From Candidatus Nitronauta litoralis (lineage in GTDB: Bacteria > Nitrospinota > Nitrospinia > Nitrospinales > Nitrospinaceae), in NCBI GenBank assembly GCA_015698285.1, contig CP048685.1, positions 2,666,001-2,730,000 on the forward strand: DNA of 64,000 nucleotides, written 5' to 3'. The translations under genes were made by a program, and so were the position numbers. The notes under the pieces are model-generated. The model saw only the letters and a program-made list of their open reading frames with translations, had not been told where the DNA came from and searched no databases. This document shows, one piece after another, positions 9,620 through 24,185 of this stretch (its first letter is position 1; every line of letters starts with the position of its first letter).

Positions 9620-11509
9620 TTAAACCACTCCCTTGTTATTCAGAAAACTTGTGTATTGCTGGTCCGTTCCCATGATGTGTTGCACCAGCCAGTCCTTCAG
9701 AAAAGTCATCATTCTCGTTCCGACTCCGGCTTCACCTGATTTGTAGCGGTTTGCCAGGTCTCCAACCTGACTGAGCAGCTCCTCGTGTTTTGCTTTATGA
9801 GCATCCCGGTCCGGGTAACTGTGATCGCCAAATAACCTTTCTTCATAGGCAAAGTGTTTTTGCGTGAAACTGACCAGTTCGTCAAGCGTTTGATGAATTG
9901 AGCCTTCAGTATGGCCCAGCATGATTCCACGATAAACATCGTTGATCAGGTTAATCAGTCTTTTATGGTGATTGTCAATTTCCTGTATGTTCACACTTAA
10001 GGCATCGTTCCAATCCATTAATGTCATTGATTCGCTTTTAAAAGTGAACTTGCCCACTACCTGTTCAAGTATATGGGAGATTTCTGTTAAATCTTCCGCC
10101 GCTTTGTGAATGTTGATAGAGCCTCCTGAGGTTTCCTGAGCCGCTTGGGAAACTCCCTTGATATTTTCAGAAATTTCTGCTGAAGAGCGGGCTGCTTCAG
10201 AAAGGCTTCTCGACATTTCATTGGTAGTAGCGGTTTGCTCTTCGACTGCACTGGCGATTGTGGAAGAGATGTCGTTAATATTCCCAATGATAGTTCCGAT
10301 TTCTTCTATAGCCTGCGTAGCCTCTCGCGTATTGATCTGGATCTCCTCAATGGTCCCTCCGATATCACCGGTTGCCTGTGAAGTTTGATTTGCCAATTCT
10401 TTGACTTCGTTCGCGACAACCGCAAAACCCTTTCCAGACTCCCCGGCCCGGGCTGCCTCAATTGTTGCATTCAACGCAAGCAAATTGGTTTGCTCTGCAA
10501 TTGAATTAATCACTTTAATGACTTGCCCGATTTTTTCGCTGCTGGCCTCAAGTCGGGATACTTTCTGATTGGTTTCGTCAGCCTTTGACACAGCATCGAG
10601 TGTGACCTGCGCTGCCTGTGTGGAGTTTACTGCGATTTCCTTGATACTGACGGCCATTTCTTCTGCCCCTGCAGCAACACTTGAAACACTTTGATTGACA
10701 AGTTCTGTTGCCTTGGAAACCACTTCCACCTGGGCGGAGGTCTCTTCTGCACTTGCGGTTAACTGCATGCTGACTTCTTTCAATAATCCCCCGGCTTCAG
10801 TAATGTTTCCCGAATTGAACCCAATCGCAGAGATTTGTGTTCGAAGGTCCACGAGAAACCTGGAGAGTTTTTCTCCAACCTGTCCCGCAGCGTCTTTGCC
10901 AACAACACTGCACTGTTTCGTGAGGTCTCCTTCTGCGGCTGCGTTAAGAACTTCAAGGATTTGATCAACTTTTTCCTGGAGTTCTTTTGTCCTCATTTGT
11001 TCATTGGTCCGCAATTCTTCGGCTTCTTTTTCAAGCGCCAGCTGTTTTGAAACCTCTTCCCAATTGACGATATAACCAAGTACCGTTTTGTTCGTGGCCG
11101 ATATTGCATTGATCTGGGTTTTTAAAGAAACGTTTCCAAAGGTGAAGGTTGCGCAATGTGGAAGATTTGCCGGATTTTCTAAAATCGCTTCTACTCTTTT
11201 AGGATCCTTGTGAAAGCGATGGATGGATCCCCCCAGGAGATTGTCGATTTGAACACCAAAATTTTCAAAAACCTCCTTTTCAATTACTCGGCAGGTTTTT
11301 TCTGCTTTAGTGTTCATGTAGACCAGCGTCAGGTTCTTATCTGCAATGAAAACATTTGTGTCCAGGTTGTCGAGGCAGGCTTTAAGCCCTGAAATAGAAC
11401 CCATGAGCTTTCCATTCCCATTTCCGAAAAAACGTCGGGTCCATCCGGTTTTGTCAACAGGCTTGTTTAGGGACAAGGCCGACCCTCTTGGCTCAAAAGT
11501 GGTTTTCAT
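9620..11509 (-). CDS. Soluble PAS chemoreceptor with C-terminal hemerythrin domain
   Basis: A 629-residue methyl-accepting chemotaxis protein without membrane helices, so cytoplasmic. A PAS-like domain occupies about residues 40-160 ([15 protein letters not shown] near its start), followed by a HAMP-like stretch and a long coiled-coil signalling domain. The conserved hairpin tip is [19 protein letters not shown], followed by [13 protein letters not shown]. Residues 498-629 form a bacteriohemerythrin with a full set of di-iron ligands: H514 or H515, H552, E556, H571, H575, H611 and D616. Hemerythrins bind O2 or NO reversibly, so this is probably an oxygen or redox sensor for taxis. The ribosome-binding site is GGAAGGAG. 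No che genes lie nearby. Confidence 0.93.
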
Positions 11510-11965: not shown

Positions 11966-12466
11966 TTAGGGAGTGCTGTATTTTGCGTGTAGTGCCTTCA
12001 TATAGTGGAGATGTTCCATCTCTGCTTTTTCCAACATAGCCAGAACTGTTTTAGCCTCTAAATTGTTGCAAAATTCGCCCAGGAGCCTGTAAAACTCCAT
12101 CGAAATCATTTCTGCCTCAATAGCAAACTCAATAGCTTCATTTACGGAAGGAAAAGGGTTTTCCTCCCTTTCCCATTCATCAATATCTGGGAAAATATCA
12201 GTCTGAAATAATTTTTCTACAGCTTCGCGCAATTCTTCATTATCATCCCAGCCATAGTCTTTCCCCTTTTTTTCAGCAATTAAATTAATGAATTGGCGTT
12301 CATGGCGCGTTTCCTCCTGCGCCATATGGGAAAGAAAATCCTTGATTTCAGGAATGGGGACCAATTCAGCCAGTTTTTCGTAAAAATATTGGCCTTCCCG
12401 CTCAATTTTAAGGGAAATATCGAGAATTTCTTTGTCTGTAATCTGTTCGCAAACCGGTCCGAGCAT
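11966..12466 (-). CDS. Ferritin-like / rubrerythrin-type di-iron protein
   Basis: A 166-residue four-helix protein with carboxylate and ExxH motifs for a di-iron site: a glutamate near residue 22-24 (KIEREGQYFYEKL), E52-x-x-H55 (EETRH), E117/E119 (AIEAEMISMEFY) and E149-x-x-H152 (EKAEMEHLHYM). The C-terminal rubredoxin domain of classical rubrerythrins is absent. Related erythrin-vacuolar and rubrerythrin-like proteins act in peroxide detoxification or iron handling in the cytoplasm. It is a single gene on the minus strand, divergent from the ECF sigma factor gene. Its position near a hemerythrin receptor and a di-iron oxidase is suggestive of an iron/oxygen theme. Confidence 0.85.
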   Translation of the reverse strand: MLGPVCEQITDKEILDISLKIEREGQYFYEKLAELVPIPEIKDFLSHMAQEETRHERQFINLIAEKKGKDYGWDDNEELREAVEKLFQTDIFPDIDEWEREENPFPSVNEAIEFAIEAEMISMEFYRLLGEFCNNLEAKTVLAMLEKAEMEHLHYMKALHAKYSTP

Positions 12467-12610
12467 GGTAATCCTTTTTGACTTAATGCATTTAATTATA
12501 CCATTTTGTTCTGGAAAAAGAACTCAAATGATTGTCTAAAGTGATTTGCGAATTAACCGTTGATTTTTTGGCCTGTATCTTATAATTTCCCTTATATAAT
12601 CTCGATAGTT

Positions 12611-13222
12611 ATGTCTGAAAATGCAGATTTGGTTTGCAACTCAGGCTATTTCAAAATTCAAAGTTCATGCTGGTATCTTTTGGAAAAATTCGCCACAAAT
12701 ATTGGAGAGGGTTCCTCTGAGGAAGCCCGAAAGCACTTACTGCCTCATCTGGATTTGATTTTCAGGTGCGCCTACAGAATGACAGGTAGGAGGCAGGATG
12801 CTGAAGATCTTTCCCAGGAGACTTATTATTTTGCCTTTAAGAATTTTGAGCAACTTAAGGATCAAGCCAAAGCTAAAAGCTGGCTTTTTTCCATATTAAG
12901 AAACCTGTTTTTAAAAGAGATCGAAAAAACAAAAAAGAAAACATTTCTTGAATTTGATTCTATTAGCAGCGCTCTCGGGGGCAAAACCAATATCGAACAG
13001 GAGTTTCTGGACAATGAAACCGCGAACTCCATCCGAGAAGTGCTTGAAACTCTGGAACCCCGCCTGAAACTCCCCATTAAAATGTTTTACTTTGAGAAAA
13101 AATCCTACAAAGAGATCGCTTCGACTATGGACTTGCCTATGGGCACTGTCATGTCCCGCATAGCCCGCGCCAAAGTCAACTTGAAAAGAAAACTGTCCAG
13201 AAATGGCAAGCTAAATATATAG
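12611..13222 (+). CDS. ECF-family RNA polymerase sigma factor
   Basis: A sigma-70 region 2 signature (LIFRCAYRMTGRRQDAEDLSQETYYFAFKNFEQL, seen in two halves) is followed by KAKSWLFSILRNLFL. Region 4 has a helix-turn-helix (KSYKEIASTMDLPMGTVMSRIARAKVNLKRKL). The frame extends up to 12560, but ATG 12611 is preferred because -10-like TATAAT boxes lie at 12581 and 12595, inside the longer frame; the protein is then about 203 residues. No ribosome-binding site is obvious. There is no anti-sigma gene on either side, which is unusual for ECF factors. The next gene downstream, 342 bases away, is the giant multicopper oxidase, a possible target. Confidence 0.9.
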   Translation: MSENADLVCNSGYFKIQSSCWYLLEKFATNIGEGSSEEARKHLLPHLDLIFRCAYRMTGRRQDAEDLSQETYYFAFKNFEQLKDQAKAKSWLFSILRNLFLKEIEKTKKKTFLEFDSISSALGGKTNIEQEFLDNETANSIREVLETLEPRLKLPIKMFYFEKKSYKEIASTMDLPMGTVMSRIARAKVNLKRKLSRNGKLNI

Positions 13223-13518: not shown

Positions 13519-13564
13519 AGGTAGAAGAATTTTTTTTGTCATACCTTTCAGGAGGGAGCTACAA

Positions 13565-16500
13565 ATGAGGAAGGTGCCAAGCTATTTGGTCGTTATGTTG
13601 GCTCTGGCTTTGATCTTCCCTGTGGCAACTGTTTGGGGTAATCCTCATCAGGGTCATGGGAAGGGACAAGGTTCAGTGGATCGACCCATCTGGTTGGAAA
13701 AGCTGGAAAACCAGGTGCAGTACGAAGAAATGATGGAAGGAAGGGTGGGCGATCAGAAACGTCTGGACAAGACATTCATGTCCTTGATGGATCGCCTGAA
13801 GGGGAAGTTAAAGGAACATGCTTCGCCTGCGTCATCCGGCGGTGGTTTTCATGATTCCTGGGCGGCCCATCAGTTGCAAAACGGTTATCTGTTGGGACCG
13901 ACAGCGGAAGCAGCCAGTGAAGTTCGTCAGGGCGGGCATTGCCCGGCGGGCGTTCCTACCAGGGAATATGACATCACTGCCATCAACGTGGAAATCACGT
14001 TGAATCAGTGGGGGGATTATTTTCCCGGTTACATGTTTGCCTTGACCAAGGATATCCCTAAAATTCGCGCGGAAGAAGAAAAGAACGCTGCGGCTCGAGA
14101 GGATGAATTGGATCCGGGTGCTGTGTCCACTGGTTTGCAGGGCGATGCGATTTCTCCGATGACCATTCGTGGGAATCAGGGGGAATGTGTTCGCTTCAAG
14201 GTCACCAATCAAGTTGAAGATGAATCGGTGGGTTTTCAGGTCAATGGCTCTGCCATGATCATCAGTGACTCCGGTCAGCCCAATACGGCGGCCACACCGG
14301 GTGCGATCATCCCGGCTGGTGAAACCCAGAACTTCGAATGGTACATTCCGGTTGACGAGCAGGAAGGCAGTCATTTGATTCAGAGTCATGGTGGACGCGA
14401 TCCTTCTTCTCTGGGTCTGATCGGTGCTTTCATTGTTGAGCCGCGCGGTTCTGAATACCTCGACCCGTGGACCGGAGAGCCGCTCGAAAATGGCTGGATG
14501 GCGATGATCTCTCACAAGGACACCAAGGACTTTCGTGAGTTCGCGCTGTTCTATCATGAAGTTGGCGACGAATCCTTTCGCCCGCTCAACCGCCATGGAG
14601 AGATGATTCCGCAGCGCGATCCGCAGACCGACGCTTACCGTCCTTCTGCCCGCGCAATGAACTATCGCTCTGAGCCTTTCGGGATCAATAATCTGGCGGT
14701 TCAGGAGAAGATGTTTCATTATGAAGATGAATCACTGGCCTACAGTTCGTACACTTTTGCAGACGTTCCCACGACCGTTCCAAGGTCTTACATGGGGGAT
14801 CCTGTAAAGTTCCGCCTGATCCATGGTGGCGGTGAAGTGTTCCATTCGCATCATCCACACGGCGGTACGATTCGTTGGACCCGTTCTCCAAAGCGGGAGC
14901 CAGGCATCGAAAACCTGTTGACTGCTGCTTACGACGGTCCTGTTAAATACCCTGTTGTTCGCACCACAACTGACCGCGTTGACGTGGAAGTTATTGGGCC
15001 TTCTGAAGCCATTGATCTGGAAACCGAGTGTGGTTCCGGTCTTTGTCAGAAGCTGGCAGGGGACTTTCTGTTCCATTGTCACGTAGCGCATCACTATGTT
15101 GCGGGTATGTGGGGTTACTGGCGTGTGTACAACACACTGCAGTATGGTAACTATCCGAAAGGCAGTACTGACGTTATGCGTCCCCTGGTTGAGCTTCCAG
15201 ATCGCAAAGGATACATCCCAAAAGGTGTGCACTCCGATACTCTGGTTGGCAAAACCATGAACTGGTACGGTAAGAAGTTCAAACTGGTTGGCAGTGGAGA
15301 CAGCAAGTGGGACCAGGATGTTCCAGTTGTAAACATCCACGACTGGGTCAAACAGATGCTGCCGCCCCAGGGCAAGCCCGGACACACCGACGATGAAAAA
15401 GGCCAGATTCTGGCTTACGACGGGACCGTCTGGGATTACGCCTGGAATGGCAACAAGGCCATGTCTGAGCGTGAAGCGACTTATGCAATGGCGAAGTACA
15501 AATCGCCAATGCCTGGCAAGCGCTTCCCGCTTCAGTTCCATCCGACCAACGGGAAACTGGCGTGGCCTCACATGACACCGCATTTTGGCAAGCGCGTTCC
15601 GTTTGCGCGGCATCATGGTGGAGCTCCCTGGCTTGAGCCTTTTCATAACCTTCGGGACAACAAAATCATTTCCAAGACAGAATCCGGAAGTGGTCGTTCT
15701 GATGCGTCAATGGAAAGCAGCGCACCCGCGAAACCGGGTGAGCAGGGTCGTTGGAGCTTGTGCCCGGAAGGTGCAGGCCGTAAGCAGTACAACCTGCACT
15801 TCATCAACACTCCGATTGAACTTTCCGGGGCGTATGGTGACACCAAGCCGATCATTGATAAGTACGGCTTGATCTATGTCATCGATGAAGACATGGCTGA
15901 AGTAAAAGCTGATCCGAAGAAAGCGATCCCACTGGTAATTCGCGCTAACGTTTATGACTGCGTTGATGTGCTTCTCTCCAGTGAATGGAACGATGATGAC
16001 TTCACAAACTTCCAGATGTCGAAGATCAACATCCATCCGCATTTCTTCCAGTTCGACAATCAGGCGTCTGATGGCGTTATCTCTGGTTTCTCTTACGACC
16101 AGTCAATGCGTTCCTATCGCCAGTTTGAAAAGAAACAAAAAGATGGCCACCATGTGGGCATGCCGGTACCGATGAATGCCAAGGTTCTGGAGGACACCAA
16201 ACCGGGTGACAAAACGGTAAAGGTTGAGTTGGCGCACCATGCCACCATGTTCCACGAAGGTGCTGACATTATCGTGGGCATTGAAGTTCCCAACGGTAAG
16301 GATGCACGGTGGATTGAAAAGATTGAACCCAAGCCCAACACGGCAAAGGACTACAAGTACACGATCACCTTCACTGAAGGCATGACTCATCCTCATAAGA
16401 AGGGTCAGATCGTTACTGCGGAATACGTCCGGTACCGCTGGTGGGTGGATGCCGATCTCGGTCTGGTGTTCTGGCACGATCACGCTTTTGGTGCCACGAC

Positions 16501-18457
16501 CTGGCCGCACGGCGGTATCGGGTCCACGATCGTAGAGCCCTGGGGGTCTACGTATCACGATCCAGCCACAGGCGAAGAAATTCGCAGCGGCCCCGTAGCC
16601 GATATCCATGGTACGGAGCCAATCGCCTATGGGCGGAACGGCAGCTTCCGTGAACTGGTTGTCCAGCTTCACGATACAGTGCCTCACACCGCCCAGTTAG
16701 TGACTGAAGGGAACCCTCCTGGGATGTCGCGTGAGAACGCGATTGCGGCGGGACAATCAATTTCCTTTCAGATGCCAACTGATATGCTGGAAGTGGCGTT
16801 TCCATACCTTAATGGTGGGACGCATACTTCCGGTGGCGGTTTTAACTTCCGTGCGGCGTCTCTAACTTCGCGTTTGAAAGCGAATTCAGATCCGTCCATG
16901 ATTTTCAGCAGTAAGGCTCACCGCGATCCTGATACACCAATGCTTCGGGCGTACCTGGGTGACAACGTGGTGTTCCGCATTCTGCACGGCATGATGAACG
17001 AAACCCATACCTTCAATGTTTCCGGCCATGGGTTTCGTCCTGAGCGCTACGATCCTGATTCTCGTGTGGTCAACACCATTCACATCGGGATTGCAGAACG
17101 TTATGACCTGGCTACAACAGCGGGTGGTTATCAGCAGATGCCGGGCGACTACCTGATTTTTGATGGTCGCTCTTCCCATCTGTCGGAAGGTTCCTGGTCC
17201 ATCATGCGGGTTTTTGACAAGCCGCAGAAAGACCTGAAGCCTCTTGAAGGCACTCGCGGTATTCTCAAGGCAAAAACTTCGCCTTGTGAAAAGGGTGCTC
17301 CGGTCAAGAATTTCAGTGTGGTCGCTATCGACAAGGCGCTCAAGTTCAACCCGAACACGGAAGACGTGATCGAAGTTGACTTTGAGCGGAAGCTGATTCT
17401 GGCCAATCCGAACGGCAAAATCTTTGCTCTCGAAAGTGAAGTGAAGAAAGTTGCTTCCAGTGAGGTTCAGCCTCACCCACTGACCCTGCATGTCAATGTA
17501 GGCGATTGTGTGAAGGTGAAACTGACCAATCGGATGAAAGAGGGGAAATCTTCCCTGCACGTTCAGAACATGGCGTTCGATCCAAAGGACAGCCAGGGCA
17601 TTAACGTCGGGAACAACCCGGGCGACCAGACGGTAGCACCGGGCAAGTCCAAAACCTACACCTTCTATGCACATCCGGATTACTATCTGAATGGCGCATT
17701 GGTTTGGGACTTTGGCAACCTGATGAATGTCCGTCACGGTTTGTTCGGCGGTATCATCATCGGCCCACGGGGTTCTGTCTATCGTGATCCGGAAACGGGT
17801 AAAGACATCACGATGGGCAATTCCTGGAAAGCCGACGTCATTGTCGACAAGTCCTATCCTGAAAACAAGGATATCGAGAACTACCGTTCTTTCTCCCTGT
17901 ACTTCCAGGACGAGGACAACATCCTTGGAACGTCCTTCATGCCTTACCTGCAGAACGTTGCAGGTCTGACAGGTGTGAATTACCGGCTGGAGCCGTGGGT
18001 GTACCGCGAAGACGAAGGTTGTGAGCTGGGTAACATCTTCACACCTTGTGTCGCAGCGGACAGCATGCCGGCTACTCCGACCTTGAAAGCCCATGCGGGC
18101 GACAAGGTGATGATCAACGTCTTTGGTGCTCATAACGAGCAAAACCAGATGTTCAATCTGGACGGTCACCAATGGCGGCGCCACATTAAACAGAACGGTT
18201 CGGATATGATCGACGTCGAAGAATTTGGCGCCGGTGAATACATCCAGGCCTTCCTGTTGAACGGTGCCGGCGGTACGTATCATGTACCGGGGACCTACCT
18301 CTGGTTGAACGCCCGCACGCCTTACCAGCAGGCAGGGCAGTGGGGGTATTTCAAGGTTCTGCCGAAGGGCGACCGGTCAATTCTGCCTCTGGGTGGCGCG
18401 ACTCCTTCCGGGAAGTCCGCTCAGTTGCCGAGTGATGATCAGTTGTCTATGAAGTAG
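13565..18457 (+). CDS. Giant secreted multicopper oxidase, six-cupredoxin type
   Basis: A 1630-residue protein with a signal peptide (to about residue 26) and a strong AGGAGGGAG site. Three related units are visible, each with an N-type cupredoxin part ending in a shared pattern (IVEP-x-G-S-x-Y-x-DP-x-TGE at about 290, 990 and 1400) and a C-type part. Only one full copper set exists: H427-x-x-H430-x-H432 and H504-C505-H506-x3-H510-x4-M515 (type 1 plus half of the trinuclear site) in unit 1, then HPH 824-826 and HDH 971-973 in unit 2. Ordinary multicopper oxidases have the HxH pairs first. Unit 3 and the other halves are degenerate. Very large secreted oxidases include MofA/MnxG-type putative Mn(II) oxidases, so metal oxidation in the periplasm or outside is plausible. 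The substrate is unproven. A terminator follows. Confidence 0.88.
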   Translation: MRKVPSYLVVMLALALIFPVATVWGNPHQGHGKGQGSVDRPIWLEKLENQVQYEEMMEGRVGDQKRLDKTFMSLMDRLKGKLKEHASPASSGGGFHDSWAAHQLQNGYLLGPTAEAASEVRQGGHCPAGVPTREYDITAINVEITLNQWGDYFPGYMFALTKDIPKIRAEEEKNAAAREDELDPGAVSTGLQGDAISPMTIRGNQGECVRFKVTNQVEDESVGFQVNGSAMIISDSGQPNTAATPGAIIPAGETQNFEWYIPVDEQEGSHLIQSHGGRDPSSLGLIGAFIVEPRGSEYLDPWTGEPLENGWMAMISHKDTKDFREFALFYHEVGDESFRPLNRHGEMIPQRDPQTDAYRPSARAMNYRSEPFGINNLAVQEKMFHYEDESLAYSSYTFADVPTTVPRSYMGDPVKFRLIHGGGEVFHSHHPHGGTIRWTRSPKREPGIENLLTAAYDGPVKYPVVRTTTDRVDVEVIGPSEAIDLETECGSGLCQKLAGDFLFHCHVAHHYVAGMWGYWRVYNTLQYGNYPKGSTDVMRPLVELPDRKGYIPKGVHSDTLVGKTMNWYGKKFKLVGSGDSKWDQDVPVVNIHDWVKQMLPPQGKPGHTDDEKGQILAYDGTVWDYAWNGNKAMSEREATYAMAKYKSPMPGKRFPLQFHPTNGKLAWPHMTPHFGKRVPFARHHGGAPWLEPFHNLRDNKIISKTESGSGRSDASMESSAPAKPGEQGRWSLCPEGAGRKQYNLHFINTPIELSGAYGDTKPIIDKYGLIYVIDEDMAEVKADPKKAIPLVIRANVYDCVDVLLSSEWNDDDFTNFQMSKINIHPHFFQFDNQASDGVISGFSYDQSMRSYRQFEKKQKDGHHVGMPVPMNAKVLEDTKPGDKTVKVELAHHATMFHEGADIIVGIEVPNGKDARWIEKIEPKPNTAKDYKYTITFTEGMTHPHKKGQIVTAEYVRYRWWVDADLGLVFWHDHAFGATTWPHGGIGSTIVEPWGSTYHDPATGEEIRSGPVADIHGTEPIAYGRNGSFRELVVQLHDTVPHTAQLVTEGNPPGMSRENAIAAGQSISFQMPTDMLEVAFPYLNGGTHTSGGGFNFRAASLTSRLKANSDPSMIFSSKAHRDPDTPMLRAYLGDNVVFRILHGMMNETHTFNVSGHGFRPERYDPDSRVVNTIHIGIAERYDLATTAGGYQQMPGDYLIFDGRSSHLSEGSWSIMRVFDKPQKDLKPLEGTRGILKAKTSPCEKGAPVKNFSVVAIDKALKFNPNTEDVIEVDFERKLILANPNGKIFALESEVKKVASSEVQPHPLTLHVNVGDCVKVKLTNRMKEGKSSLHVQNMAFDPKDSQGINVGNNPGDQTVAPGKSKTYTFYAHPDYYLNGALVWDFGNLMNVRHGLFGGIIIGPRGSVYRDPETGKDITMGNSWKADVIVDKSYPENKDIENYRSFSLYFQDEDNILGTSFMPYLQNVAGLTGVNYRLEPWVYREDEGCELGNIFTPCVAADSMPATPTLKAHAGDKVMINVFGAHNEQNQMFNLDGHQWRRHIKQNGSDMIDVEEFGAGEYIQAFLLNGAGGTYHVPGTYLWLNARTPYQQAGQWGYFKVLPKGDRSILPLGGATPSGKSAQLPSDDQLSMK

Positions 18458-18487
18458 TCACCAGAGCGTTTGACGTAAGCACTACAG

Positions 18488-18518
18488 CGGGGAGGTCCAT
18501 CCGGGCCTCCCCGTTTTT
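18488..18518 (+). terminator. Rho-independent terminator of the multicopper oxidase
   Basis: An 8-bp stem CGGGGAGG (18488-18495) / CCTCCCCG (18506-18513) with a 10-base loop, followed directly by TTTTT (18514-18518). It lies 31 bases after the stop codon. Confidence 0.92.
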
Positions 18519-19958: not shown

Positions 19959-22900
19959 TTAAAGCGAACTGTCCGGGATGAAAGTCAGAGTTTGGACACT
20001 ATTGCCGGATCCATTTGTGGTGTTGGTTATGGTGAAGTTACGCACAACATTTCCACTGTTAATTCCAGCAGTTGCCAGATCCAGCTGTATCTCGATTTCT
20101 AAAGTAGACCTTGGCCCAAGGGTGCCCGTCACTGGGCCAAGCAGGGTGACACCGGCTTCGTTCGCGACCACTGAATAGTTAATCGGGGTATCCCCTGAAT
20201 TGGAAACGAATAGGCTGGCAGTGCTATTGGCTGCCAAGCTGGTAGCGGTTACGATCTCTTCCCAGTTATTGGGGTGATGTGCAACAATGGAACCCGGATG
20301 CACTCCATAGAAGGACAGGAAGCTGGGCTGGACCAGGTTGGCTGCAGTCGATCCAAAAGGGCCGAAGTCGGCCCCGGTTGCGCCATCAAACTCTCGAACA
20401 TCAGTAGCATCCACAACGAACAGGTTGCCTGTGGAGGGTTGGAATCCGATCCCGCCCTGTGGGTTTGTCAGGTTGCCCGTTTGACCAAATGGGCCAATAT
20501 GAGCGCCCGTAGGACCATCAAACTCTACAACGTTTCCAGAAGACTGGTCCACGACCAGGAGATTGCCTGTTACTGGATGAAACGCCATTCCCATGGGGTT
20601 GGTCAGGAAGAACGGGGTCTCTCCAAAAAAGCCGAGATAGGCTCCTGTCGTGCCATCAAACTCCAGAACCATTCCCTGTGAAAAATCAGAAACAAGCAGG
20701 TTGTTGGTGACCGGGTGGAAAACAATTCCGCCTTGCGGGTCGAACAGCCGGTCCAGGGTCTGCCCGAATACTCCCAGAGATACACCAGTGTGCTCATCAA
20801 ATACATGGACGTTTCCTAGGTTTCCTCTATCCAGGACAAACATGTCGTGTGTCGTTGGGTGATAGGCGATACCGACAGGATCAGCCAGATGGGCCGCCGT
20901 CTGATTGACAGATCCCTTTGGATCAGCATTGGCATCAATTTCCACAACATCGGCACTGCTGGCATCCGTTACCGTCAAGCTGTCTCGAACCGGATGAAAT
21001 GCCATGCCCAGTGGTGTGGTGACGGGGGAGGCGGCACCATAATTAAACTCCAGAGCACCGTTTGCCTCGAAGGCGAATAGATCGCTTTGCGAAACATCAC
21101 CCACAAACAGATTGGTCGGGGAAATAAAGCTCTCAGTGAGTGTGTAGGTGTGAGCTGCTATTGGGCCAACGGTGGCATTGGTTGGAGAAGAAAGGGTGAC
21201 CTCAATGGTTTCCCCGGCATCTCCAAGACCATCCAATATGGGGGAAAAAACGATGTCGCGATGCATGTCTCCCGGGTAGAACGTCAGGGTTCCGGATGGC
21301 AGGATGAAATCTGTACCTGCCGTTGCGGTACCACCGGTGACCGTGTAATCAACTGTAACAATTGAAGAGAAAGGATTTGAAAGGGTGACCGGAATCTGGC
21401 TGGGCTGCCGGAATTCCGGGCCGGAGGATACCACATTGGGAAAGCCTACAGTTGGGGGCAGATCATCATCGTGGATCAGAGTGAAGCTGTAGGGGATGGT
21501 TCCCTGTTGTGCTCCCGTAACGGAAAAGAAGACCGCAAACATATACTCCAGTCCTTCAGCAACGGTGTCGTCGATGAGGGTCAAGGGTATGGTCGCTGTG
21601 GTCTGGCCCGGTGCAAAATCGAGCGAACCCGGAGGAAGTGTATAGTCAGTGCCGTCAGTCGCGTTGCCTGGAATGGAGTAATAGATCACGTTGACCGGGT
21701 ATTCCGCCGGATTCGACATTTTGATCTTCAGGTTGACCGTTTCCTGTGATTCAGGTGCATCATTCTGAAAAGATAAAAACGTGACAAACGGCAGGTCGTC
21801 ATCACTGATGGTAGCCGTGTGCAGGGCTGGTGCCCCGATTGTTGCGTTACTCGGACCCGCCAGGGTGATCTCAACTGTTTCGTCAACGATTGCTTCGGCA
21901 ATGGCATCGTCTTGAATGTCAAGAATGATGCTTTGTTGTGTTTCACCTGGAATAAAATTCAGAATTCCCGCAGCCAGAGTGTAGTCGGTTCCGCCTCCTG
22001 TTGCGGTACCGCCAGTAACAGCGTAGTTGATCGAGACGGGCAGTACATAGGAATTGGACAGGACGACCGGGATATCACCGACAATCTGATTTTCAACAAA
22101 ACTGCTGGTCGGGTTGTCAAAGGCAACTGATGGCAGGGTGTCGTCATCGAGAATGGTCAGGGTGTGAACAGTTGTTCCACCGAGTCCTGCATTGACCGGA
22201 TTGAACAGGGTGATCTCAACAGTTTCCGGGCCTTCTGCCAATCCGTCATTATTTATGTTTATGGGAATAGGGCGCGTGGTCTGGCCCGGATTGAAAGTCA
22301 ACGTTCCGTTCGACAATGTATAATCAGTTCCTCCGCCCGTAGCGCTGCCGCCTGTGACTGTGTAATCAACCGTGGCCGTTGAGCCGAGTGACTGTGACAG
22401 GTTCACATTGACGTTTACTGTTCCGCTGGATTCAGGATGACTGGAAGAGGCACTGGCAAAATTCAAGGTCGCCGCCGACAGGATCTGGGTAACAGCAGCG
22501 TCCACCTGGATGCGAGGATGCGTCAAGCCGTTGCGGGTATCGAGAATCGGTTGGCCGGTGGTTTGCAGTGCTGTCAGAATTTCCGTGACCGTTGCCGTTG
22601 GATTGGCCTGGCGCATGATGGCCCAGGTTCCTGCTACATGTGGGGCCGCCATTGAGGTTCCGCTGAAAAAGGCAAATCCGTTACTGGGTGGAATGGAGGA
22701 ACGGATAGAAGAACCCGGTGCAAGCAGGCTCAGGAATGATGCGCTGTTGGAAAAACTGGAGACGTTATCGGATTTGGTTGTCGAGCCCACACTGACAGCA
22801 GTTGAAATACAGGCCGGTGCCCCCATGGCATTGGTAAATCCACTGTTGCCCGATGAGATGGCTGTTGCGATCCCGACAGCTCTTAAATTGTCGATGGCCG

Positions 22901-23927
22901 CTTTTCGGGCACTTTGAACCGCATCGCAGTTTGAAGAATAGCTTCCGCCCCCAAGGCTCATATTTGCAGATGCAATATTGAACGTACCGCTAAGGGCCAA
23001 AACACGTTCGAGGCCCATTATCTGATCGGATGAATAAGACAACACGCAAGGTGCCGGGCGCGGCGAACAGGTCGAAGCACTGTCAAATCGCGAGAATACC
23101 TGGATAGCGATGATATCAGCTTCCCTGGCAACCCCGCTGAATGAGGCTCCATCACCCGCCGCGATTCCTGCCACATGGGTCCCGTGGTCGCATGTTGCAA
23201 CGGACAGTGACGGATTGTTAGCGCTGCACTCGACTCCGGAACCGACGGCAGTGGATGCTTGCACCCCTCCGGGACAGACGGAATGAATGGTCGAGCCGGA
23301 AGTCGTGGAGTAGCAGGCTTCCGAGACGACTTTACCGGATAAAAAGTTGTGCGTTTTATCGACACCTGTATCGAGAATGGCGACGGCCCAGCCGTTACCG
23401 GTGTAACCCGGTCCCATGGTCCAGGCGGTATCCGCTCCAATAAGTGGAATGGATTGCGACAGGTTTGGCGGCTCCGGAACGTCTTCTATGATCTCAAGAA
23501 TTCTAGGGTCTGCAGATAACTGGAGTAAGGTTGCGGAGTCCGCTTCCAGTGCAAGCAAAGGATGATATCGGAATTTTTTTACACCCTTAACCGGGCGGAC
23601 AATACCGGGTAATGGTTGTTTGGAATTGGCGCCGGTCAAACCGCTAAGAGAATTGAGAACATCCTGCTGTGTATTTGAAATAGCGGACCGATAAGCACGT
23701 CCATCGGAACCGGGACTCATCGGGGAATTGGGCATGGAAGTGTTGAGCCTGGCAATGATGCGTACTGTTCCCTCAGTTTGAGCTTTGGACATCAGGTCAT
23801 TTTGGAGATTGGCCGCGAATAAAACTTGAGGTATGAGAAGGGAAATTGTCAGGAATAGCGTTAAGGTTCTGGCAATTAAATGAATAAAAGAAAAGTGTTC
23901 GCGTACCTTGGTTTTACAGCAAGTCAT
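19959..23927 (-). CDS. Secreted subtilisin-like (S8) protease with Calx-beta and propeller domains
   Basis: A protein of about 1322 residues. ATG 23927 is preferred to ATG 23933 because GGTGG then sits six bases upstream. A signal/anchor segment ends near residue 40, and an inhibitor-like prodomain spans about 45-155. The S8 domain has a full triad in 23933-start numbering: D188 (AILDTGVD), H250 (DHGTHVAG) and S427 (SGTSMAAPHVAG), with N363 as oxyanion residue. About four Calx-beta repeats follow (490-950, each with GTDYTL and an E-T-V-E-I-T-L strand). Next come NHL-like propeller repeats (955-1215: GMAFHPVTGNLLVVD and variants) and a C-terminal beta-sandwich. It is probably a surface or released adhesive protease; no sorting signal is visible at the C-terminus. 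Confidence 0.93.
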   Translation of the reverse strand: MTCCKTKVREHFSFIHLIARTLTLFLTISLLIPQVLFAANLQNDLMSKAQTEGTVRIIARLNTSMPNSPMSPGSDGRAYRSAISNTQQDVLNSLSGLTGANSKQPLPGIVRPVKGVKKFRYHPLLALEADSATLLQLSADPRILEIIEDVPEPPNLSQSIPLIGADTAWTMGPGYTGNGWAVAILDTGVDKTHNFLSGKVVSEACYSTTSGSTIHSVCPGGVQASTAVGSGVECSANNPSLSVATCDHGTHVAGIAAGDGASFSGVAREADIIAIQVFSRFDSASTCSPRPAPCVLSYSSDQIMGLERVLALSGTFNIASANMSLGGGSYSSNCDAVQSARKAAIDNLRAVGIATAISSGNSGFTNAMGAPACISTAVSVGSTTKSDNVSSFSNSASFLSLLAPGSSIRSSIPPSNGFAFFSGTSMAAPHVAGTWAIMRQANPTATVTEILTALQTTGQPILDTRNGLTHPRIQVDAAVTQILSAATLNFASASSSHPESSGTVNVNVNLSQSLGSTATVDYTVTGGSATGGGTDYTLSNGTLTFNPGQTTRPIPININNDGLAEGPETVEITLFNPVNAGLGGTTVHTLTILDDDTLPSVAFDNPTSSFVENQIVGDIPVVLSNSYVLPVSINYAVTGGTATGGGTDYTLAAGILNFIPGETQQSIILDIQDDAIAEAIVDETVEITLAGPSNATIGAPALHTATISDDDLPFVTFLSFQNDAPESQETVNLKIKMSNPAEYPVNVIYYSIPGNATDGTDYTLPPGSLDFAPGQTTATIPLTLIDDTVAEGLEYMFAVFFSVTGAQQGTIPYSFTLIHDDDLPPTVGFPNVVSSGPEFRQPSQIPVTLSNPFSSIVTVDYTVTGGTATAGTDFILPSGTLTFYPGDMHRDIVFSPILDGLGDAGETIEVTLSSPTNATVGPIAAHTYTLTESFISPTNLFVGDVSQSDLFAFEANGALEFNYGAASPVTTPLGMAFHPVRDSLTVTDASSADVVEIDANADPKGSVNQTAAHLADPVGIAYHPTTHDMFVLDRGNLGNVHVFDEHTGVSLGVFGQTLDRLFDPQGGIVFHPVTNNLLVSDFSQGMVLEFDGTTGAYLGFFGETPFFLTNPMGMAFHPVTGNLLVVDQSSGNVVEFDGPTGAHIGPFGQTGNLTNPQGGIGFQPSTGNLFVVDATDVREFDGATGADFGPFGSTAANLVQPSFLSFYGVHPGSIVAHHPNNWEEIVTATSLAANSTASLFVSNSGDTPINYSVVANEAGVTLLGPVTGTLGPRSTLEIEIQLDLATAGINSGNVVRNFTITNTTNGSGNSVQTLTFIPDSSL

Positions 23928-24185
23928 AGTCATCCACCGGGCAAAATTGATGTGATCCTTGATTTATCAAGATGAAATTGCGTTTCTTTTTCAGGCTCCA
24001 GATTCATCCAAATAAATACGGAAAAAGAGATAAGGAAGGATAATTCTTTTCTGTAAATCAAGTCAAACGCGATTTTAATACAATAGGCTAATCGGGCTAA
24101 ATTCAATCAATATTATGTATTGAGTATGGTTGATTCTAAAAATGTCTGCGACTGGTTGATGAGATTACTTTTCGGGCTCTAGAAA

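Follow-up and report, generated by a model that had tools for sequence, protein, structure and literature searches.

In all of the prokaryotic six-domain multicopper oxidases analyzed in 2013, as well as in the algal ferroxidases, the ligands of the trinuclear copper cluster are located in domains 2 and 3, while the mononuclear site of the prokaryotic proteins is found in domain 2 only (PMC3600357). MnxG of Bacillus sp. PL-12 (PDB 9bxa) and the protein encoded in an mnxEFG-type locus of Priestia megaterium (L130) both present six cupredoxin domains, with the copper motifs arranged in the order C-D-A-B. A homologue in the nitrite oxidizer Nitrospina gracilis, conserved in “Ca. Nitrospira defluvii,” has been described as resembling the Bacillus SG-1 Mn oxidase and as clustered with genes for nitrite oxidoreductase; N. 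gracilis lacks superoxide dismutase and catalase, and Mn(III) generated by the oxidase was proposed as a possible guard against reactive oxygen (Luecker et al. 2013, PMC3578206). The oxidase type itself is therefore already known in nitrite-oxidizing bacteria. Less familiar is that this oxidase accompanies nitrite oxidation in two phyla, usually beside a small blue-copper protein. New in our analysis are its co-occurrence with nitrite oxidoreductase in Nitrospirota, the frequent downstream blue-copper gene, the set of genes around it in Nitrospinales, and the concerted evolution of its two copies.

The gene considered here belongs to the marine nitrite oxidizer “Ca. Nitronauta litoralis” EB (PMC8026999) and lies in a 64,000-nucleotide stretch of its contig CP048685.1 (hereafter, the window), to which coordinates refer unless otherwise specified. 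An uninterrupted open reading frame on the forward strand (13565..18457), identified also by homology, encodes a six-domain multicopper oxidase of 1,630 residues, one of two copies in the genome and here termed copy b. Since the gene has a ribosome-binding site upstream (AGGAGGG, 13550..13556, forward strand) and, downstream, a terminator-like hairpin of 13 pairs followed by a T run (18486..18515, forward strand), copy b is probably transcribed alone. Residues 1 to 25 (13565..13639) resemble a signal peptide, as judged by eye from the sequence. An inspection by eye of the upstream regions for a shared ECF-type promoter revealed no obvious motif in common, and a consensus promoter scan scored no better than shuffled sequences.

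All the elements of the protein described below are encoded on the forward strand. Downstream of a family-specific N-terminal region (residues 26 to 131, 13640..13957) with no counterpart in MnxG, the protein comprises unit 1 (domains 1 and 2, residues 133 to 550, 13961..15214), an inter-unit linker (residues 551 to 734, 15215..15766) that mostly lacks a counterpart in MnxG, unit 2 (domains 3 and 4, residues 735 to 1235, 15767..17269), and unit 3 (domains 5 and 6, residues 1240 to 1620, 17282..18424), which has no copper site. Furthermore, an insertion of about 100 residues between motifs A and B (residues 851 to 951, 16115..16417) occurs throughout the nitrifier family and not in MnxG, a smaller protein (about 1,220 residues) with a shorter linker and no such N-terminal region. 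The relatedness of the three units, which had been noticed in the preliminary description of the locus, is evident from profile-profile comparisons with hhalign (E values of 8e-26 for units 1 and 2, 5.5e-29 for units 1 and 3, and 2.4e-28 for units 2 and 3), and the family alignment displays the domain alternation of six-domain copper proteins, with domains 1, 3, and 5 resembling each other and domains 2, 4, and 6 doing likewise. The same description had assigned an E-P-x-G-S-x-Y-x-D-P-x-T-G pattern to each unit; this holds for EPRGSEYLDPWTG (residues 292 to 304, 14438..14476), which closes domain 1, and for EPWGSTYHDPATG (residues 991 to 1003, 16535..16573), which closes domain 3, but the third copy, GPRGSVYRDPETG (residues 1400 to 1412, 17762..17800), which closes domain 5, starts with G-P instead of E-P.

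The division into six cupredoxin domains in three units is borne out by hhalign and by the structural similarity to MnxG and ceruloplasmin detected with Foldseek. In particular, a moderate-confidence AlphaFold2 model of residues 120 to 1235 (domains 1 to 4), built from 31 sequences, retrieved MnxG first (E value of 6.4e-39) and ceruloplasmin next. Its pLDDT of 62, with domain 2 poorly modeled, is too low to place the coppers, and for this reason we rely on homology to 9bxa in suggesting that the four copper motifs would converge on one cluster. Ceruloplasmin and hephaestin have the six-domain, three-unit build in common with the oxidase; however, in ceruloplasmin the trinuclear cluster is shared by domains 1 and 6, which in the oxidase lack those ligands.

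The four copper motifs are found exactly where they had been reported. Motif C (H427-x-x-H430-x-H432, 14843..14860), which reads H427-SH-H430-P-H432 and provides type 1, type 2, and type 3 ligands, aligns with the HxxHxH of MnxG, and motif D (HCHVAHHYVAGM, residues 504 to 515, 15074..15109), contributing H504, C505, H506, H510, and M515, aligns with the HCH...M counterpart. Motif A (H824-P-H826, 16034..16042) and motif B (H971-D-H973, 16475..16483) were assigned by alignment and conservation, HPHFFQFD and HDH of the oxidase matching HIHFVKFD and HDH of MnxG. The 12 expected ligands, identical to those of MnxG, are invariant in all 88 relatives compared, both genomic copies included, even though some of these are only 52 to 56% identical, which excludes a chance origin of the motifs; five of six outgroup sequences retain the whole set as well, and the remaining one differs solely at the axial Met. 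The trinuclear ligands thus fall in domains 2 and 3 and the single type 1 site falls in domain 2, as in MnxG, and there is no second complete ligand set in units 2 and 3. The proposal of a six-cupredoxin protein with one complete set shared by units 1 and 2 and a trinuclear cluster between domains 2 and 3 is accordingly the arrangement predicted by ligand positions and MnxG homology.

As for the order of the motifs, laccases, CueO, and CopA share copper chemistry and motifs with the oxidase but are composed of two or three domains with the order A-B-C-D. The order C-D-A-B, correctly recognized as the reverse of that of laccases and matched motif for motif by MnxG, comes as no surprise: it is standard in prokaryotic six-domain oxidases and in the algal FOX1 (PMC3600357), and it occurs in every outgroup that we examined, so that a categorical novelty is ruled out. 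The oxidase is ordinary for its class, and the headline of the preliminary description falls away. The interest that remains lies in a genomic association that is useful and testable: a two-copy copper enzyme occurs alongside NxrA in every NxrA-bearing Nitrospirota genome sampled, usually next to a blue-copper protein, which makes the electron donor directly testable in key organisms of the marine nitrogen cycle.

Among solved proteins, MnxG is the closest (E value of 2.2e-91 by sequence and 1.4e-126 by profile), and the proposed likeness to MnxG stands to this extent. The oxidase scores 104.6 bits against the NCBIfam MnxG equivalog model NF041487, far short of the cutoff of 3,100 bits, and does not qualify as MnxG proper. 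Moreover, the MnxE- and MnxF-like proteins of Priestia, whose oxidase is about 27% identical to ours, found no match in the genome in a search run without a positive control. Because of the missed cutoff and the missing MnxE and MnxF matches, we classify the protein as an MnxG-like six-domain oxidase of a nitrifier clade, with predicted MnxG-like copper chemistry and putative Mn oxidation. The same two results weigh against a true Mn(II) oxidase that coats the cell with Mn oxide in the manner of MnxG on Bacillus spores. That possibility, which we regard as rather unlikely, draws on the kinship with MnxG and on Manganitrophus, an Mn-oxidizing lineage with two tandem oxidase genes, one of which is 61% identical to ours; however, the authors who described Manganitrophus prefer to explain its Mn oxidation by Cyc2 and porin-cytochromes (PMC9040806), and we found no report of Mn deposition by nitrite oxidizers in the literature examined.

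The distribution of the family points in the same direction, since it tracks nitrite oxidizers and not known Mn depositors. A member of the family occurs in 51 of the 61 near relatives, and in a wider sample of the phylum 1 of the 10 genomes outside the order gave a match, limited to the N-terminal region. Among the best 80 loci of a scan of species genomes, identity amounts to 75 to 82% in Nitrospinota, about 60% in Manganitrophus-like genomes, and 52 to 56% in Nitrospira, and the protein of “Ca. Nitrospira defluvii” (L093) is 53% identical to that of the window; the oxidase of N. gracilis is assigned to the same family by its description. In a quickly built tree, whose long outgroup branches leave the root unsure, the proteins of Nitrospina, Nitrospira, and Manganitrophus group on a single branch, separate from sequences of the MnxG type (SH-aLRT of 100). 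Among 246 sampled Nitrospirota genomes, which are not phylogenetically independent, the oxidase occurs in all 73 with a canonical NxrA (at least 81% identity) versus 28 of the 173 without it; it occurs in none of the 11 genomes carrying a NarG-like protein of 40% identity. Some of the 28 genomes may belong to nitrite oxidizers that lost their NxrA during assembly. The association with nitrite oxidation is strong and not strict, because Manganitrophus possesses the oxidase but has no comparably strong NxrA match, which rules out a strict dependence. Nitrospinota-like oxidase fragments (76 to 80% identity) were also noticed on contigs labeled as a Poseidoniales archaeon and as Acidobacteriota (L055 and L076), probably owing to binning errors.

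In Nitrospinales, a recurrent block comprises genes for a DegP-like protease, oxidase copy a, a blue-copper protein, a rubrerythrin-like protein on the opposite strand, an ECF sigma factor, and oxidase copy b. This block is split in the “Ca. Nitronauta” genome. The window retains the divergent gene of the rubrerythrin-family protein (11966..12466, reverse strand), that of the ECF-type sigma factor (12560..13222, forward strand), and copy b, an arrangement conserved in a sister species (L045). Copy a, which is 88% identical to copy b (genome positions 3722809 to 3727638), keeps the DegP and blue-copper genes and is followed by multiheme and NxrC-like cytochrome genes. Compared to the oxidases described in N. 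gracilis and “Ca. Nitrospira defluvii,” the window gene is hence a second, relocated copy with no adjoining blue-copper gene. Beside the oxidase copies of Nitrospira, neither rubrerythrin-like nor ECF genes were detected, so that this stress-type context is lineage specific.

Flanking sequence was sufficient in 52 relatives from both phyla, and in 37 of these a blue-copper gene starts on the same strand within 1.5 kb downstream of the oxidase. A His and a C-x2-H-x2-M motif are invariant across the blue-copper sequences compared; Pfam and PDB profile searches did not recognize the cupredoxin part, whereas the predicted structure (pLDDT of 85.7) matches amicyanin and azurin, with amicyanin the closest and an amicyanin-type loop. 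The adjacency marks this protein as a likely partner, presumably not an exclusive one, since a single genome holds several related genes (five in “Ca. Nitronauta”). Members of this secreted family (L037:7811-8659 and L138:7714-8532) carry, besides the amicyanin-like cupredoxin, a C-terminal carboxypeptidase-regulatory-like domain.

Taken together, we give a probability of roughly 0.5 to the joint reading that the gene product is a working, exported MnxG-like oxidase of six cupredoxin domains, with a metal ion as electron donor, a role in oxidative or metal-stress defense, and an amicyanin-like partner. While the ligand set, the architecture, and their conservation are observed, the sequence suggests that the protein is probably exported and probably reduces O2 with electrons from a metal ion or a blue-copper protein. 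Electrons would enter at the lone type 1 copper of domain 2 (H427, C505, H510, and M515) and pass through the His-Cys-His bridge to the trinuclear cluster of domains 2 and 3 (H430, H432, H504, H506, H824, H826, H971, and H973), where O2 would be reduced to water; domains 1 and 4 to 6 would have a structural role. The most likely source of electrons would be a reduced periplasmic metal ion, namely, Mn(II), Fe(II), or Cu(I), and the co-encoded amicyanin-like protein could act as a redox partner or copper carrier. A defensive role in nitrite-oxidizing bacteria and their kin is supported by the conservation in Nitrospinales of the rubrerythrin-like, ECF sigma, and DegP-type neighbors and by the stress role proposed for N. 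gracilis, an organism devoid of superoxide dismutase and catalase (PMC3578206). The lack of a blue-copper gene beside copy b, and the failure to detect rubrerythrin-like and ECF genes beside the Nitrospira copies, speak against this joint reading.

It is also possible to hypothesize, with considerable reservation, that the oxidase and the amicyanin-like protein form a dedicated redox pair, a hallmark of nitrite oxidizers of the Nitrospira and Nitrospina type, serving as a protective, accessory route by which the periplasmic electron chain reduces O2. A somewhat different proposal, which we consider unlikely, is that of an auxiliary periplasmic oxidase passing electrons to O2 from the amicyanin-like cupredoxin or from c-type cytochromes of the nitrite chain, with no conservation of energy. 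The blue-copper adjacency conserved in two phyla would fit it, as would the multiheme and NxrC-like genes beside copy a, a second blue-copper gene located after a c-type cytochrome gene, the presence of the oxidase in every NxrA-bearing genome of the Nitrospirota sample, and the lack of a canonical heme-copper oxidase in “Ca. Nitronauta” (PMC8026999). However, Manganitrophus has the oxidase and no comparable NxrA match, and the window copy b is a stand-alone gene. To our knowledge, moreover, the six-domain multicopper oxidases of known function act on metal ions. Finally, remoter six-domain relatives adjoin CopC genes on Streptomyces and Priestia plasmids, as would suit a cuprous oxidase for copper tolerance, but we deem this improbable: the CopA model TIGR01480 gives 17.1 bits against a cutoff of 478.95, and a Pfam scan of the neighborhoods identified no copper-export genes.

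With regard to the two copies, a and b cluster by genome in all five cases examined, despite occupying matching places of the block across different families, and a topology uniting the b copies is rejected by the AU test (P of 5.6e-82). In short tracts, notably at alignment columns 420 to 480 and 780 to 840, the third-codon identity between a and b exceeds that to the orthologue of the sister species; these conversion-like tracts coincide with, or are close to, copper motifs C and A. This suggests gene conversion as the simplest explanation of the similarity. Concerted evolution of the two copies, represented here by the window gene and the oxidase gene at L037:8807-13735, was seen in five genomes.

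Other six-domain oxidases and neighboring genes were noticed in the course of the analysis. A second, very different six-domain oxidase of 1,787 residues, 29% identical, occurs in a Nitrospinales genome (L043:6037-11397), adjoining genes for a beta-propeller-like protein and a cytochrome-containing substrate-binding-like protein, and a full-length, 31%-identical one is encoded on a Streptomyces plasmid beside a CopC-like gene (L129:3314-8632). In the window, a chemotaxis receptor with a C-terminal hemerythrin domain (9620 to 11509), possibly an oxygen sensor, is found near copy b, as it is in the sister species, and an open reading frame of 1,324 residues on the reverse strand (19959 to 23933) resembles, by eye, a subtilase with Calx-beta-like and NHL-like repeats.
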